A stretch of 10,324 bases of DNA, from the NCBI GenBank assembly GCA_030612385.1, contig JAUWNZ010000027.1, positions 1 to 10,324 of the forward strand. Direction: 5' to 3'. Below the pieces are notes generated by a model. That model ran no database searches, was not told the origin of the DNA, and saw only the letters and a list, made by a program, of their open reading frames with translations. A program made the translations under genes and the position numbers. Origin of the DNA: Pseudomonadota bacterium (GTDB lineage Bacteria; Desulfobacterota; Syntrophia; Syntrophales; JADFWA01). Numbering within the stretch: position 1 is the stretch's first letter; the number at the start of each line of letters is the position of its first letter. Positions 3,896-9,461 of the stretch are shown here, in pieces.

Positions 3896-4207
3896 ATGCC
3901 AGTGGCAAAAACATCCAGGCATAGCAAAAAAAAAGAAAACCTGAGATTGAAGATTCCCACGATGATCATTGTCAGCCTGGTTCTTATGGCGACCATTCTC
4001 GGCTATGTCTGGTCGCATATACATTTTACGGAGCTAAATTATCTGATAGCGCAGGAGATGAGCATAAGGGACAGCCTCGCGGAGGAAAACAGAAAGTTAA
4101 AAGTTGAATATGCCACCCTGAAATCACCCGGGCGTATCGAGGCAATTGCCAGAGACAAATTAGAGATGTACTATCCTCAAAGGGACCAGGTTACATTTTT
4201 GAAATGA
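3896..4207 (+). CDS. ftsL: FtsL, divisome bitopic membrane protein
   Basis: FtsL is a small cell-division protein. It pairs with FtsB (DivIC) through a periplasmic coiled coil and helps activate FtsWI at the septum. The product has 103 residues: a basic cytoplasmic N-terminus (KTSRHSKKKENLRLK), one transmembrane helix at about 20-39, then a heptad-rich coiled coil at about 44-77 (LNYLIAQEMSIRDSLAEENR). The conserved tail SPGRIEAIARDKLEMYYPQ follows, as is typical of FtsL. Sequence conservation in this family is low, so the call rests also on the position between rsmH and ftsI. ATG 3896 has GAGGT 3 nt upstream. The stop overlaps the ftsI start as ATGA (4204-4207). Confidence 0.9.
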   Translation: MPVAKTSRHSKKKENLRLKIPTMIIVSLVLMATILGYVWSHIHFTELNYLIAQEMSIRDSLAEENRKLKVEYATLKSPGRIEAIARDKLEMYYPQRDQVTFLK

Positions 4208-6168
4208 TTAAAAAACCAGGGAAATGGCTGCGATTCAGGACAATAACCCTTATGGTTTTTTCCCTGGTATTCTTTATTGCCCTGATATCAAGGACATTCC
4301 AGCTCCAGATTCTTTACGGGGAAACCCTCAAAGCGCAGGCGGACAGGCAACACACAAAGACCCTGCGGCATCAGCCCGAAAGAGGTCTCATACTTGACCG
4401 GAATGGTGAAAAACTTGCGGCAAGTGTAATGGTGGACTCTGTCTGCGCGAATCCGGCGAAAATAAACAATCCCAGGGAGGTTTCATCAAGACTTTCATCT
4501 GTGCTGAACACAGGCAGAAGACCCATCCTGAAAAAACTCTCAAAATCCGGCAGCTTTTGCTGGCTGACAAGAAGGGTATCTCCGGCATGCGCCGATGACG
4601 TAACTGCCCTGAATATCGATGGAATTTATTTAACAAAGGAACTGAAGCGATTTTATCCCAACAGTGAACTTGCAGGTCAGCTTTTAGGCTTTGCGGGCCT
4701 CGACTCCACTGGACTTGAAGGACTGGAACTGAAATATGACAGTTATTTGAGGGGAAAGCCGGAAAAGTGTTTATGGGGAAGGGATGCGAAGGGAAAGAGA
4801 ATCTTCCTGCAGGGAAGTTCAATCGATGAAGCTGAGGATGACAACTGCAACCTGATTCTTACCCTTGATGGCAGGATCCAGTATCTGGTTGAATCGCAAC
4901 TGCGCGACGCTGTCAGGGAAACGGGCGCAAAAGGGGGGATTGCCGTTGTTATGGACCCCAAAACCGGTGAGATACTGGCAATGGCGAACGTCCCCGGCTT
5001 TAATCCAAATACCTTTTTCAGATATTCTTCAAAGGTATGGAGAAACAAAGTGATTACAGATTGTTTTGATCCCGGTTCAACATTCAAACCATTCCTGGCG
5101 GCGGGGGCGCTCGAGGAAGACGCAGTAAAAGAGGATGACACGTTTTACTGTGAAAATGGCGCTTATCGGGTAGGAAACAAAACAATACGCGACGTAAAAA
5201 AACACAAGGAACTTTCACTTCAGGAGATTCTCAAATATTCAAGCAATATTGGCGCTGTCAAGGTGGCGGATGTATTAGGCAGGGAGAGGTTTTATCAATA
5301 CATCAGGAAATTCGGATTCGGCTCCAGGACGGGAATAGGACTTCCTGGTGAATCTTCCGGAATTCTCAGGGCGTCGCAAAAATGGACGAAGGTTGACACG
5401 GCGACAATAGCCTTTGGCCAGGGGGTTTCCGTTACGGCGATACAGTTAATAACGGCGCTTAGCGCCATAGCCAATGACGGAGTTTTAATGAAACCCTATG
5501 TCGTGCGTGGGTTGATTGATCATAAGGGACGTGTTGTCAAAGAGTTTACACCAACAGTTGTGAGGAGGGTGATCTCCCCCTCTACCGCAGGGAAGCTTGT
5601 GTCTATCCTCACAAGTGTTGTGGAGGAGGAAGGTGGTACGGGGAGTAATGCCAGGATCGCAAATGTGGGTGTGGCAGGAAAGTCCGGGACATCTCAAAAG
5701 TTCGACTTCGCGGAGGGCAGATACTCTCACGATAAGGTAAAAGCCTCCTTCATGGGGTTCTTTCCGGCAGTGGATCCTCATTTTGCCATCCTCGTGGTGC
5801 TGGATGAACCTGAAAAACACAGGTGGGGAGGGGTGGCGGCGGCACCTGTCTTCAAAAATATTGCGGAGCAGATATTGTATGGGGGCAACTCCTCGCATTT
5901 GACAAAATGCGCCTATGAAGCCGATTCCGGCCGGATGAGAGACTATGTTGTCAAGCGTGCGGACCTGACAATCACAGAGACATCAAATGAATCGATCATG
6001 CCGGACTTCATGGGTATGTCCATGAGGAAGGCGCTGAAGCTGTCGCAGGAGCGGGGAGTTGATTTGAAGATTGTGGGGAGCGGCTGGGCGGAGAGGCAGA
6101 AACCGTCCGCCGGCGCTCCATTGAAAAATCATCGATCCTGTGTAGTTTTCTTTAGCGACGGCTCTTAA
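4204..6168 (+). CDS. ftsI: FtsI/PBP3-type septal D,D-transpeptidase with C-terminal PASTA domain
   Basis: This class B penicillin-binding protein cross-links septal peptidoglycan as partner of FtsW, anchored in the inner membrane. The product has 654 residues. One transmembrane helix is at about 12-30. The N-terminal pedestal motif RGLILDRNG is at 60-68. The transpeptidase domain begins with VVMDPKTGEILAMANVPGFNPN. Its catalytic motifs are STFK with nucleophile S292 and K295, SSN (346-348) and KSGT (493-496). All are intact. After a linker rich in polar residues, a PASTA-like module begins near 597 (SIMPDFMGMSMRKALKLSQ). E. coli FtsI lacks this module, but it is common in deltaproteobacterial and Gram-positive relatives. 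Start ATG 4204 overlaps the ftsL stop. The heptamer repeat begins 2 nt after its stop. Confidence 0.96.
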   Translation: MIKKPGKWLRFRTITLMVFSLVFFIALISRTFQLQILYGETLKAQADRQHTKTLRHQPERGLILDRNGEKLAASVMVDSVCANPAKINNPREVSSRLSSVLNTGRRPILKKLSKSGSFCWLTRRVSPACADDVTALNIDGIYLTKELKRFYPNSELAGQLLGFAGLDSTGLEGLELKYDSYLRGKPEKCLWGRDAKGKRIFLQGSSIDEAEDDNCNLILTLDGRIQYLVESQLRDAVRETGAKGGIAVVMDPKTGEILAMANVPGFNPNTFFRYSSKVWRNKVITDCFDPGSTFKPFLAAGALEEDAVKEDDTFYCENGAYRVGNKTIRDVKKHKELSLQEILKYSSNIGAVKVADVLGRERFYQYIRKFGFGSRTGIGLPGESSGILRASQKWTKVDTATIAFGQGVSVTAIQLITALSAIANDGVLMKPYVVRGLIDHKGRVVKEFTPTVVRRVISPSTAGKLVSILTSVVEEEGGTGSNARIANVGVAGKSGTSQKFDFAEGRYSHDKVKASFMGFFPAVDPHFAILVVLDEPEKHRWGGVAAAPVFKNIAEQILYGGNSSHLTKCAYEADSGRMRDYVVKRADLTITETSNESIMPDFMGMSMRKALKLSQERGVDLKIVGSGWAERQKPSAGAPLKNHRSCVVFFSDGS

Positions 6169-6170
6169 AA

Positions 6171-6232
6171 AGTTTCGAGTCTAAAGTTAAACCCGAAACC
6201 CGAAACCCGAAACCCGAAACTCGAAACTCGAT
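6171..6232. repeat. Heptamer repeat (GAAACCC/GAAACTC), copy 1, between ftsI and murE
   Basis: This repeat fills nearly the whole 64-nt gap between the ftsI stop and murE. A block AGTTTCGAGTCTAAAGTT (6171-6188) is followed by about six tandem 7-mers (four GAAACCC-like, two GAAACTC-like) up to 6230. AGTTTCGAGT (6171-6180) is the exact reverse complement of 6219-6228, so the RNA can fold. It ends 3 nt or less before the TTG at 6233 and leaves no Shine-Dalgarno sequence. The 18-nt block is identical to 7742-7759 in copy 2. Confidence 0.9.
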
Positions 6233-9229
6233 TTGAAATTATCTCACTTAATAAAAGGGCTCACTATCCTTCAGATATCAGGGGATATTTCAGGTGAGGT
6301 CTCATCCATTTGCTACGATTCCAGGAGATGCGAGGAGGGTTCTCTTTTTGTCGCCATACCCGGGCTGAGATTTGATGGCCACGACTATATCCATGATGCG
6401 GCGAAGAGAGGAGCGAGGTATATCGTACACGAAAAAGAGATGCCTGCGGGGTTGGATCTTACAATGATCAAGGTTGGAGATAGCCGTCGTGCCCTGGGCG
6501 TATTAGGAAAGATCTTCTTCCGGAATCCCTCCGCCGACCTGTGCGTAACCGGCATCACAGGCACAAATGGAAAGACAACCGTAAGCTATCTCCTGGAATC
6601 TATTTTCAAGGCGGCGGGATTTACCGTAGGGGTTATAGGAACGGTGAATTACAGGTTCGATGGATGGGAAATCCCCGCCGCCGTCACAACGCCGGAGTCC
6701 CTCGATCTGCAGGAAATGCTCAGGAGAATGGTCGATTCAGGGATAACACATGCGGTTATCGAAGTATCCTCTCATTCACTCGATCTGAAAAGGGTGGCCG
6801 ACTGTGAGTTTGATCGGAGGATATTTACAAATCTTTCTCAGGATCATCTTGATTATCACCATACTATGGAAAGATACTTTCTTACAAAAAAGACATTCTT
6901 TGAAGAGGCGCCTGACACGGGCGGTAAGATGATCATAAACGGTGATGATCCGTGGGGGCAGAGGCTTTTTGAGGAAACAGGTAAAAAGGCGCTGACCTTC
7001 GGCATCGAAAATGAATGTGATATTTCGGCTGAGAATTTTTATCTTACACCCGAGGGGATCAAAGGAGAAATAAAGACGCATAATGGCAATTTTACCATCA
7101 ACTCATCGATAATCGGGAGGTTCAACCTGTATAATATCCTGACTGCCGCGGCAGCGGCATTTTCTCTTCAGATTCCGGAGGATCGCATCCGGGCCGGCAT
7201 CGAAAATCTAAAGAAGATACCGGGGCGGCTGGAAAAGGTGAGCGAACCGGGTCAGCCGGCGGTCTTTATAGACTATGCTCACACGGAAGACGCTTTGAAG
7301 AAGGCGCTTTTGAACCTGTCCGCATTCAAGAAAGGAAGGATTATCACGGTCTTTGGGTGCGGTGGCGACAGGGATCGTGGTAAAAGACCTCTCATGGGAA
7401 AGATCGCCGCTACGCTCAGCGACCTTACCCTAATTACTTCCGATAATCCGAGAGATGAAGATCCACTAACTATTATAGGGGAGATAGAAAAAGGAATTAA
7501 GGGGAAGACGGGAGCTTCCATAAAAAAGTATCTTCGCGAGGATTTGACGGGAAGTTTTCATGAAAAGGGCTATGTGATTGTTCCTGATCGAAAAGCGGCG
7601 GTTGAGCTCGCAATTGACGTTGCCGATGTTCTGGACACTGTCCTGATTGCGGGAAAGGGGCATGAAAAATACCAGATCACGGGAGACCGGCGGATATTCT
7701 TCGACGATGGAGCGGTAAGCAGGAAGGCTCTTCAAGTTTCGAGTTTCGAGTCTAAAGTTTCGGGTTTAAGGTTCAATGAACAATTAATCTCGAAACCCGA
7801 AACTCGAAACCCGAAACCCGTAACTTTGGAACTAACCATAGACGAGATTTTGAGGGCAACCGGTGGAATCGTCATCCAGGGCGATTCCGGCGGTGTGTTC
7901 AGGGGAATATCTACCGACTCAAGAAGTATCTCAAAGGAGAACCTGTTTCTCCCGATCAGGGGGGAGAGATTTGACGGCCATGACTTTATCGCCGCCGCGG
8001 TAAGAGGCGGAGCCCGTGGATCGCTGGTACAGAGGGGCCTTGAGGGAAAAGTAAAGGCTGCTACTGAAGATGTTGTTCTTGTCCTTGTTGACGATACGTT
8101 GAAAGCCCTGGGTGATATTGCTCATTTCTGGCGGAACAGGTTTGAAATCAAGGTCATAGCGGTAACCGGCAGCTCCGGAAAGACGACAACAAAGGAGATG
8201 ATGGCCGGAATCACAGGGCTGGCTAAAAAGGTGTTAAAGAGCCCGGGAAACTTCAATAACCTTATCGGCCTTCCGTTGACGCTTTTTGAGATGAACGCGG
8301 ACCATGAAGTCGCAATCCTTGAGATGGGGACAAATAAAAGAGGCGAGATAGGAAGACTGACCAGAATTGCGGAACCGGATGTGGGACTCATTACCAATAT
8401 CGGCCCGGCGCACCTGGAAGGCCTTAAATCCATGGGTGAGATCAGGGAAGAAAAGTGGGAACTGTTTAATAATATGAAAAGTCACGGGGTCGCCATTATC
8501 AATAATGACGATGACTTATTGAGCCGGCCGGACGGCCGGTGGGCGGGTAAGACCGTCACCTTTGGCATAAAAAAAGATGCCGATGTCCGAGCGGAGCGTA
8601 TCACGAAAAGAGGCGGGAGCGGGGTAGATTTTATTCTCGTGACGAAGGGGTCCCATCGTAAAATAGCGTTGTCGACCGCGGGAGAACACAATGTCAGCAA
8701 TGCCCTGGCTGCCGCCGCGTCTTCTCTGGCCCTGGGCGTTGAATATGATTTGATTTGTGAAGGATTGATGTCGTTCAAGCCGATCGATGGCCGCATGGAG
8801 ATCCTGAAATTGAGAAACGGGACATTTTTGATTAACGATACATACAACGCCAATCCCCAATCGGTTGGCGCTGCCCTGAACGCTTTGAAAGACTTGAGAG
8901 AAGAACATGGGAGTACAGTCATCTTTGGAGATATGCTTGAACTCGGTGACAGGGCTGAAGAGCTGCATGAAGGTGTCGGGAGTCTTATGGCGGAAACCGG
9001 CGTCGGCGCAATTTTTCTCAAGGGAGATCTTGCCCCGGTGGTGGCGAGAGGGGCAATCAGGAGAGGATTAAAAAACGATCAGATATATTTTCCAGAAAAC
9101 AATGGAGAGATAGCGGCCCATCTCCGGTCATATCTGAAAAAGGGAGATTGGATACTGGTTAAGGGATCGAGGAAGATGGGAATGGAAACGATCGTTCGTG
9201 AGATAACCGAAGAGTTTGGTCTGGTTTAG
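6233..9229 (+). CDS. murE-murF: MurE-MurF fusion: meso-DAP ligase joined to D-Ala-D-Ala ligase
   Basis: This is one uninterrupted 998-codon frame encoding two consecutive cytoplasmic ATP-dependent ligases of peptidoglycan precursor synthesis. MurE (about 1-500) adds meso-diaminopimelate to UDP-MurNAc-L-Ala-D-Glu. It shows GTNGKTT (110-116), TNLSQDHLDYH (199-209), K219 at the position of the carbamylated lysine, and DNPR (404-407), the meso-DAP signature. Residues about 501-531 are encoded by a nucleotide repeat (VSSFESKVSGLRF... SKPETRNPKPVT) and resemble no ligase sequence. MurF (532-998) adds D-Ala-D-Ala. It shows GSSGKTT (646-652), NFNNLIGLPLTL, LEMGTNKRGEI, NIGPAHLEG and NDTYNANP (868-875). 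The start is TTG 6233, chosen because MKLSHLIKGL matches MurE N-termini and no ATG or GTG exists before the upstream stop at 6188. No ribosome binding site is visible. TTG 7826 could serve as an internal MurF start. MurE-MurF fusions are known elsewhere, for example in Bordetella. Confidence 0.93.
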   Translation: MKLSHLIKGLTILQISGDISGEVSSICYDSRRCEEGSLFVAIPGLRFDGHDYIHDAAKRGARYIVHEKEMPAGLDLTMIKVGDSRRALGVLGKIFFRNPSADLCVTGITGTNGKTTVSYLLESIFKAAGFTVGVIGTVNYRFDGWEIPAAVTTPESLDLQEMLRRMVDSGITHAVIEVSSHSLDLKRVADCEFDRRIFTNLSQDHLDYHHTMERYFLTKKTFFEEAPDTGGKMIINGDDPWGQRLFEETGKKALTFGIENECDISAENFYLTPEGIKGEIKTHNGNFTINSSIIGRFNLYNILTAAAAAFSLQIPEDRIRAGIENLKKIPGRLEKVSEPGQPAVFIDYAHTEDALKKALLNLSAFKKGRIITVFGCGGDRDRGKRPLMGKIAATLSDLTLITSDNPRDEDPLTIIGEIEKGIKGKTGASIKKYLREDLTGSFHEKGYVIVPDRKAAVELAIDVADVLDTVLIAGKGHEKYQITGDRRIFFDDGAVSRKALQVSSFESKVSGLRFNEQLISKPETRNPKPVTLELTIDEILRATGGIVIQGDSGGVFRGISTDSRSISKENLFLPIRGERFDGHDFIAAAVRGGARGSLVQRGLEGKVKAATEDVVLVLVDDTLKALGDIAHFWRNRFEIKVIAVTGSSGKTTTKEMMAGITGLAKKVLKSPGNFNNLIGLPLTLFEMNADHEVAILEMGTNKRGEIGRLTRIAEPDVGLITNIGPAHLEGLKSMGEIREEKWELFNNMKSHGVAIINNDDDLLSRPDGRWAGKTVTFGIKKDADVRAERITKRGGSGVDFILVTKGSHRKIALSTAGEHNVSNALAAAASSLALGVEYDLICEGLMSFKPIDGRMEILKLRNGTFLINDTYNANPQSVGAALNALKDLREEHGSTVIFGDMLELGDRAEELHEGVGSLMAETGVGAIFLKGDLAPVVARGAIRRGLKNDQIYFPENNGEIAAHLRSYLKKGDWILVKGSRKMGMETIVREITEEFGLV
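7735..7825. repeat. Heptamer repeat, copy 2, in-frame linker of the murE-murF ORF
   Basis: The left arm (7735-7767, GAGTTTC/GGGTTTC units) and right arm (7793-7825, GAAACCC/GAAACTC units) are reverse complements at 27 of 33 positions by hand alignment. The spacer is 25 nt. The left arm contains AGTTTCGAGTCTAAAGTT (7742-7759), identical to copy 1. The element begins where the MurE C-terminus ends (L500). It ends exactly at TTG 7826, the natural beginning of MurF. Pure GAAACCC or GAAACTC tandem arrays contain no stop codon in any of the six frames, which explains how this array can be translated as a linker. Confidence 0.9.
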
Positions 9230-9242
9230 GCTGAACAACCTA

Positions 9243-9461
9243 AGAAACGAGGGTGAAATAACTTCCCCAAGTATGCATCACAGCTTTAGGTGATGAATTT
9301 TCTAACGCAAAATATTTTAAACAGGAACCGTAGGGGCAGGCCCCTGTGCCTGCCCGATTACAAATTGACCATACAATGCTGGGCAACCACAGGGGGTTGC
9401 CCCTACAAGTATCAAAATTTTTTATATTTATGCTTGGGGAAATTAGTTCGTCCCCGTTCCT
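9243..9461. repeat. Nested inverted-repeat element between murF and mraY
   Basis: This element of about 220 bp fills most of the 252-nt gap in an otherwise tight operon. The outer arms 9243-9274 and 9430-9461 (TTCCCCAAG... and CTTGGGGAA...) are reverse complements at 25 of 32 positions by hand count, and most mismatches are transitions. Just inside the left arm is a small hairpin, CATCAC/GTGATG (9276-9281 with 9290-9295), followed by AATTTT. At the centre is a copy of the two-hairpin module (9330-9406). No ORF with protein-like content was found. It resembles a non-autonomous palindromic element. Confidence 0.8.
9330..9406 (-). repeat. Inner two-hairpin palindromic module, copy B (inverted relative to copy A)
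   Basis: The module is bounded by GTAGGGGCA (9330-9338) and TGCCCCTAC (9398-9406). Inside are two 8-bp hairpins with 6-nt loops: GGGCAGGC/GCCTGCCC (9334-9341 with 9348-9355) and GGGCAACC/GGTTGCCC (9381-9388 with 9395-9402). Compared with 1240-1310 the hairpin order is swapped. Its reverse complement aligns with copy A, including the AGGC-type hairpin at the same end. The spacers between the hairpins differ between the copies. Confidence 0.8.

Follow-up and report, generated by a model that had tools for sequence, protein, structure and literature searches.

A MurE-MurF reading frame in a member of the Syntrophales with a linker that is the translation of a dispersed heptamer repeat

The stretch of DNA analyzed here (hereafter, the window) comprises 10,324 nucleotides (nt) of a bacterium of the order Syntrophales (assembly GCA_030612385.1, contig JAUWNZ010000027.1) and carries, at positions 6233–9229 of the forward strand, one open reading frame of 998 codons plus a stop, with a TTG start, that covers both MurE and MurF. 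The MurE domain (residues 1–500; 6233–7732, forward) was delimited by Pfam and NCBIfam matches, of which PRK00139.1-4 extends over residues 1–501, and by the invariant residues in an alignment of 26 proteins. It is followed by the linker (residues 501–532; 7733–7828, forward) and by the MurF domain (residues 533–998 with the stop codon; 7829–9229, forward, or 7829–9226 without the stop), in which TIGR01143 murF matches residues 561–989. The single-domain models scored above their cut-offs (TIGR01085 murE, 620.1 vs. 257.3 bits; TIGR01143 murF, 569.4 vs. 288.6 bits), and the NCBIfam model of the bifunctional MurE/MurF, PRK11929.1, reached 953.4 bits, below its curated cut-off of 1023. The sequences GTNGKTT and DNPR are present in the MurE part and GSSGKTT in the MurF part, most of their residues being invariant among the 26 proteins; we take the three to be ligase active-site motifs. 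From DNPR at 404–407, presumably a sign of the meso-diaminopimelate type, the MurE domain is probably a UDP-N-acetylmuramoyl (UDP-MurNAc)-tripeptide synthetase of that type.

The residues of the linker, QVSSFESKVSGLRFNEQLISKPETRNPKPVTL, are what a heptamer inverted repeat yields on direct translation; the repeat was recognized by its 7-nt periodicity, its hairpin and its two arms. An inverted-repeat search and translation placed the left arm, which reads VSSFESKVSGL, at 7734–7767 (forward) and the right arm, composed of CGAAACY units and reading SKPETRNPKPVT, at 7793–7826 (forward), and the arms are 82% complementary over 34 nt. The self-identity of the 96-nt linker at lag 7 was 0.67, the best of lags 4–15 (p = 0.0002 against codon shuffles), and its predicted RNA fold of −35.3 kcal/mol (z −5.4) was matched by none of 200 shuffles. 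An earlier note on this DNA had described the linker as 31 residues translated directly from a heptamer repeat, palindromic and dispersed. The description was borne out by the lag-7 period and by 14 sites in the genome against none for the control (see below), and only the length has to be amended, to 32 residues by the present boundaries.

Arrays of CGAAACC and CGAAACT contain no stop in any forward frame, and (CGAAACC)n encodes the heptapeptide NPKPETR whatever the frame, because 7 cannot be divided by 3. A heptamer array is thus a linker that tolerates any frame, and for the same reason the changes of length that keep the frame go in steps of 21 nt, or seven residues. About 69% of all heptamers (11,256 of 16,380) form arrays free of forward stops; a good many arrays can therefore turn into linkers after loss of the upstream stop, provided that the two frames match. 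In the window the MurE frame crosses the element without a stop and the other two frames contain stops. A scan of 7733–7900 for an ATG, GTG or TTG from which a separate MurF could start in frame found a TTG at 7826–7828 (forward) as the first candidate and further ones at 7850 and 7895. The ATG at which murF starts in unfused relatives corresponds in the window to a GTA, just upstream of TTG 7826. The 32-residue linker is probably flexible, like that of the Bordetella pertussis fusion (PMC6420597).

The repeat is dispersed through its own genome, which was searched as a draft of 1.61 Mb in 324 contigs (68.65% complete). The pattern CGAAACYCGAAACYCGAAAC matched 30 times (18 forward, 12 reverse) at 14 sites on 13 contigs, and the reversed control pattern had no match. 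The 18-nt block AGTTTCGAGTCTAAAGTT, for which a search of the host genome had been proposed, occurred eight times, including 6171–6188 and 7742–7759, against none for the control; because four of its places fall outside the 14 array-pattern sites, these sites are a lower bound. Unit composition and length differ between copies of the element. Eight copies were folded, and all of them folded better than the mean of their own shuffles (z −2.4 to −10.0). Twelve of the 14 sites were judged intergenic, partly by eye, from reading frames and family scans of the flanking frames, examples being those directly after the dxs stop and before rpoC, lolC and murG; the two remaining sites are the MurE-MurF linker and the end of a frame with a ThyX match on contig C40. 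One of the 12 is a second copy in the window, at 6171–6232 (forward), which lies between the gene of a class B penicillin-binding protein (4204–6168, identified by matches below curated cut-offs) and murE, and adjoins the TTG start of the latter at 6233. This copy, already placed outside coding sequence by the earlier note, is real by both the inverted-repeat search and the fold (z −2.4; 6 of 200 shuffles as good).

Other copies were observed close to gene ends. On contig C185 (L020) an array at 494–514 lies just upstream of the start of murG, whose match covers residues 29–184 of its frame and falls short of the curated cut-off, the gene being truncated where the contig ends; with this site and others, at least three cell-wall genes of the genome have elements at or near their starts. 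The gene lolC (contig C132, L009, minus strand) seemingly starts a few nt behind an array. On contig C40 (L007:1–1404) the frame with the ThyX match, over residues 8–209, ends inside a heptamer array, and its last residues, VSSFEFRV, are repeat-encoded.

Three unfused genomes of the same family (G001, G002, and G003, the three among the matches listed) carry a heptamer element at the murE-murF junction, contrary to the earlier supposition that unfused relatives would lack the repeat. Both genes are whole only in G001, as the G002 contig begins at the end of murE and the G003 contig ends just past the murF start. The junctions of G001, G002, and G003 have lag-7 identities of 0.67, 0.67, and 0.43, respectively, and align with the element of the window across both arms and the loop; the fold of the G001 element had a z of −3.0, with 2 of 200 shuffles as good. 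Their heptamers are TTTGAAC in G001, GGTTAAA together with GAACTCT/GAACTTT in G002, and AACTTTA/AACTCTG-like in G003, and arrays of TTTGAAC and GGTTAAA have a stop in all three forward frames. The murE gene ends at a TAA that lies at or within the left arm in G001 and G003 and inside a GGTTAAA heptamer in G002, and the murF ATG stands directly behind the right arm in all three. No empty site that would bear out a mobility of the element was found at the junction among the same-family genomes. Outside the family, the equivalents of residues 500 and 533 are separated by 29–66 nt in 21 of the 22 split relatives of the same order for which the junction was examined, compared to 96 nt in the window; the remaining one, G046, has 157 nt, since its MurF alignment begins late. 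The broad pattern of three consecutive GAAMYYY units was unspecific in G001 (31 matches, against 28 for the control). Heptamer repeats are also present in the spacer before murE of G001 and G003, with an AAGAGGA motif placed between array and start codon; this motif is lost in the window, where no Shine-Dalgarno sequence is visible between the array and the murE TTG (6171–6235). Octamers (GGATTGAG), not heptamers, were seen in the murE-murF spacer of two split relatives of family f70, G452 (L181) and G454 (L194); in G452 they are followed by inverted-looking CCTCAATT units, and its best lag was 8, at 0.68.

The fused and split genes were placed on a tree of 108 MurE+MurF rows, built by a quick method under LG+G4 with support from the Shimodaira-Hasegawa-like approximate likelihood ratio test (SH-aLRT) only. 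For G003, a MurF match of 28% was discarded as spurious and the label was set to split because of the visible stop; G002 entered with MurF only and G560 with MurE only; three long-branch meetings were flagged, one of which sets G746 against all others including the window. The fusion of the window lies in a clade of four rows (SH-aLRT 100) together with three unfused relatives, and this clade is nested in one of 12 rows (SH-aLRT 100) with 11 unfused. Over the whole tree the fused/split label changes 15 times (gains or losses), at least 13 of the changes being forced by the starred branches. Judged from this tree, the fusion in the window is an independent event within its family. Because it is nested among unfused relatives that bear the repeat, it would be younger than the repeat, if the junction elements are orthologous. 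The tree places P0002/P0003 and the fused f12 genomes G014/G030 in different clades, and a reading of the two as sisters, with the fusion older than the palindrome, was rejected.

The reading that we favor, with a probability of roughly 0.7, is that MurE has come to be read through a repeat element into MurF, giving one bifunctional ligase, after a history in which the repeat came first. In the family's ancestor, the heptamer element would have occupied the murE-murF junction and would already have stood in for the usual murE terminus as well as for the ribosome-binding region of murF. Heptamer arrays would turn over, with units diverging between species; on the way to the window the units would have become mostly CGAAACC/T, free of stops, with the leftover stops of the element outside the MurE frame, and the murF ATG would have turned into GTA. 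With the MurE frame free of stops and the ATG of murF lost, MurE would be translated straight through the element into MurF, and the product would be one bifunctional ligase with a 32-residue linker. Since the unfused relatives carry the junction element, the repeat at the junction alone did not fuse the genes; a later change of the element and the loss of the ATG would have done so. The earlier proposal that a mobile or expanding repeat had removed the murE stop therefore holds as regards dispersal, but not for the repeat itself fusing the genes, as the relatives carry a junction element and are unfused.

Linkers built of short DNA repeats were also found in other lineages. A search of 5.8 billion proteins yielded 4393 homologues, and 119 of the best 120 have the size of a fused protein (914–1043 residues); the linkers of one group, about 44% identical to the protein of the window, are such as HPKPGTRNPEPETRNPIP, the product of (CGAAACC)n. 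The DNA of the f140 lineage was found with P0097 as the query. Its 15 loci with a readable linker, among the matches listed, have a single frame as far as the contigs reach (those of G732 and G707 are incomplete). Their linker DNA consists of CGNAACY units, clearest in G675, G697, and G732, and the linker of G651 is identical at the protein level to that of P0129 (Desulfobacteraceae bacterium Eth-SRB2). The unfused f140 members G529, G712, and G687 form the sister clade of the fused ones. Triple arrays of CGNAACY, counted among the matches listed, numbered 118 in G687, 74 in G470, 71 in G560, 63 in G712, and 33 both in G527 and in the genome of the window, with a control of 0 in each, and 4 in G529 against 5 in the control. 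In f136, G527 is fused with a linker of AAGCTCA heptamers and G560 and G470 are split. The linker of the f12 fusions G014 (L032:3001–3106) and G030 (L033:3019–3124) contains CCCCCCTTTCGCAAAGGGGGG, read as SPLAPLSQRG, and the palindromes CCCCCCTTTNNNAAAGGGGGG occupy 13 sites in G014 and 20 in G030, the linker included, against 0 for the control; four were present in the window's own genome. Repeat-built MurE-MurF linkers thus appear to have arisen independently in other Desulfobacterota, and the suggestion that such a linker is a distinct route to the fusion holds, the route being met again in these lineages.

The periodicity of these linkers was quantified. A significant 7-nt period (p < 0.05, codon shuffle) was obtained for 14 of the 17 linkers expected to consist of repeats (the window, the 15 f140 loci and G527), and lag 7 was the best lag in the same 14. 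None of nine fused controls with ordinary linkers (four f103, one f129, two f153, one f8 and one f15) showed the period, with the lower power that goes with the mere 33 nt of eight of them. Among six mixed rows, G456, G711, and G014 reached p < 0.05 and G455, G419, and G030 did not; G746, with a linker below 30 nt, was omitted. The p values are uncorrected for multiple tests or kinship, and the f140 rows are related. For linker lengths, 135 proteins (P0063 onward) of the 197 listed were taken and 130 were parsed; 96 of the 130 have linkers of 18, 25, 32, 39, 46, or 53 residues (18+7k), a count that kinship inflates, and the six with 18 residues are similar to fusions of another clade, f103. 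On a linker-free tree of f140-like proteins, 8 of the 15 edge-disjoint pairs that differ in length differ by exactly seven residues (p = 0.0004 against 1/7). An RNSQPAT-like unit is present once in P0148, twice in P0146, and three times in P0147, which are among the nearest pairs.

A number of results weigh against the proposed history. The genome of the window was analyzed in a single assembly. The junction alignment is one of repetitive DNA, with a mean column identity of 59%, and the orthology of the elements would rest on position plus this alignment. The 18-nt block was not found in G001, G002, or G003, and the junction elements of G002 (z 0.8, 160 of 200 shuffles as good) and G003 (z 1.1, 173 of 200) did not fold better than their shuffles. 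As to the recurrence, 10 of the 14 fused f140 genomes searched lack a CGNAACY triple array and the remaining four have 1, 2, 5, and 6 (among the matches listed); as the arrays are mostly missing there, the f140 linker in the fused genomes would be a relic or a product of local growth. The only AAGCTCA triple of G527 is that of the linker, and G560 and G470 have none, so this linker is a local array and its candidacy as a dispersed repeat was rejected. Three of the 15 f140 linkers (G651, G702, and G692) lack a significant 7-nt period, 34 of the 130 parsed linkers fall off the 18+7k series, and 7 of the 15 pairs differ by other than seven residues. Lastly, many MurE-MurF fusions have ordinary linkers (Syntrophaceae-type, f103, f153), and repeats are therefore not needed for fusion; together with G419, these fusions rule out that fusion in the phylum generally requires them. 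G419 itself (L141 / L200, genus g103) is fused, unlike the closely related G401, G129, and G451, which are split; compared to G401 and G129 it shows an apparent deletion of about 8 nt at the overlapping stop and start, without a repeat, which is the ordinary route.

In the main alternative, the open frame is incidental or leaky, with most MurF initiated separately at TTG 7826 and the array serving as a start region without a Shine-Dalgarno sequence, and both forms may occur. We consider this unlikely. TTG 7826 could start MurF, a further point against the fused product, given that the start of murE is likewise a TTG that adjoins an array. By eye, murE, murF, and lolC start a few nt behind arrays with no visible Shine-Dalgarno sequence, and murF of the unfused relatives starts directly behind the array; heptamer repeats upstream of starts apparently replace Shine-Dalgarno sequences in Beggiatoaceae too, according to the accessible text of PMC4679880. 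However, the ATG that the relatives use has been lost in the window, and the MurE frame is the one free of stops while the other two linker frames do contain them, so that ribosomes coming from murE should enter murF regardless. An error of assembly is quite improbable. In that case heptamers would have been miscounted and the real genes would be split as in the relatives, and indeed the genome is a 324-contig draft and a miscount of one unit would shift the frame into one of the two that stop within the element. Ordinary reads, however, are generally known to be long enough to span a linker of 96 nt. If the genes were split, MurF would have no ATG, unlike in the relatives, and in-frame linkers of the same type are present in numerous separate proteins and genomes of the f140 lineage. 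The same arithmetic, by which one heptamer more or less puts MurE in a stopping frame, allows for a real switch as well as for a miscount.

It is very improbable that the fusion took place in one step, by the insertion of a mobile repeat that by itself did away with the murE stop. Copies of the element are scattered over the genome and the junctions of 21 of the 22 split same-order relatives outside the family are too short to hold it, but three relatives of the same family have the junction element and are unfused, and in G002 a heptamer even supplies the stop; if the elements are orthologous, a one-step fusion is contradicted for this family. For f140 or f12 it may yet apply; no unfused sister carrying the same element at its junction was seen in these. 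Selection on the protein for a low-complexity hinge rich in P, K, and E, with only a chance likeness to a DNA repeat, is next to negligible. Flexible hinges, as is generally known, are commonly rich in P, K, E, T, R, and N, but the 7-nt period stands out at the DNA level against codon-shuffled controls, both arms pair as DNA and the same units are found between genes.

The MurE-MurF reading frame was compared with known systems, as described in the accessible parts of the papers cited. The MurE-MurF fusion of B. pertussis is an active enzyme of elongated shape in which the linker comprises about 20 residues, and the fusion also occurs in Desulfobulbus and Desulfobacula, termed archaea in that paper (PMC6420597). 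Like these and the fusions of other Bordetella and Pseudovibrio, that of the window has the same domain order, in one chain with a short linker; it differs in that its 32 linker residues consist of a dispersed DNA repeat and that the fusion is an independent event within its family. Rickettsia palindromic elements (RPE) and the enterobacterial ERIC/RU are small dispersed palindromes with an open frame, fused in frame within genes or at their ends (PMC2229807), and, as with them, many copies of one palindrome populate the genome of the window. They are, however, units of about 100–200 base pairs with a family consensus, whereas the elements described here are degenerate heptamer arrays that vary between relatives and, unlike RPE and ERIC/RU, join two essential enzyme genes.

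Heptamer repeats are also known. The TAACTGA heptamers of marine Beggiatoaceae and the GGGACCG elements of Geobacter metallireducens are tandem and dispersed, between and within genes and often at start or stop codons, and a translated heptamer array repeats one peptide (PMC4679880; PMC2700814). The element of the window resembles both in its tandem 7-nt units, dispersed mostly between genes. Forward TAACTGA arrays stop in all three frames, in contrast to CGAAACC/T arrays, and the accessible text of the two papers describes insertion at gene ends or perhaps the splitting of a protein, not the joining of two genes. Tandem repeats of the archaeal Borg elements create disordered protein regions (PMC9879509) and thus likewise turn repeat DNA into disordered protein segments; they are direct and located on extrachromosomal elements, and the beginning of the abstract does not mention gene fusion, whereas the repeats of the window are inverted heptamers at the joint of two genes. 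In the open literature, with most subscription journals outside its scope, no report was found of a repeat as the joint of two fused genes. MurE-MurF fusion, in-frame palindromic repeats and heptamer repeats are already known, and the repeat as the joint of two fused genes would be new.

Gene fusion is commonly imagined as a stop codon being lost and an indel bringing the two frames together. In the present case, a non-coding repeat already located between two genes would have become a protein linker, repeat DNA thereby supplying protein sequence, and the unfused, repeat-bearing relatives would show the step before fusion. At this one pair of essential genes, linkers made of short DNA repeats are found in four lineages, and their arithmetic signature, seven-residue steps from 7-nt units, can be searched for at other gene pairs. 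A bolder generalization, improbable in our judgment, is that stop-free heptamer arrays are frame-tolerant joints of adjustable length that repeatedly fuse neighboring genes, with a slippery form that makes the fusion reversible. If so, one heptamer gained or lost would toggle MurE between reading on into MurF and terminating within the element, and a cell lineage could alternate between one bifunctional ligase and two separate enzymes.

Additionally, a second palindromic repeat family (GTAGGGGCA...TGCCCCTAC) was observed near both ends of the cell-wall segment of the window, with copies at 1240–1310 and 9330–9408 that are partly inverted relative to each other. The start of selB, for the selenocysteine-specific elongation factor, is located at 1–1137 on the minus strand and runs off the window (TIGR00475, 334.8 vs. 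242.25 bits).

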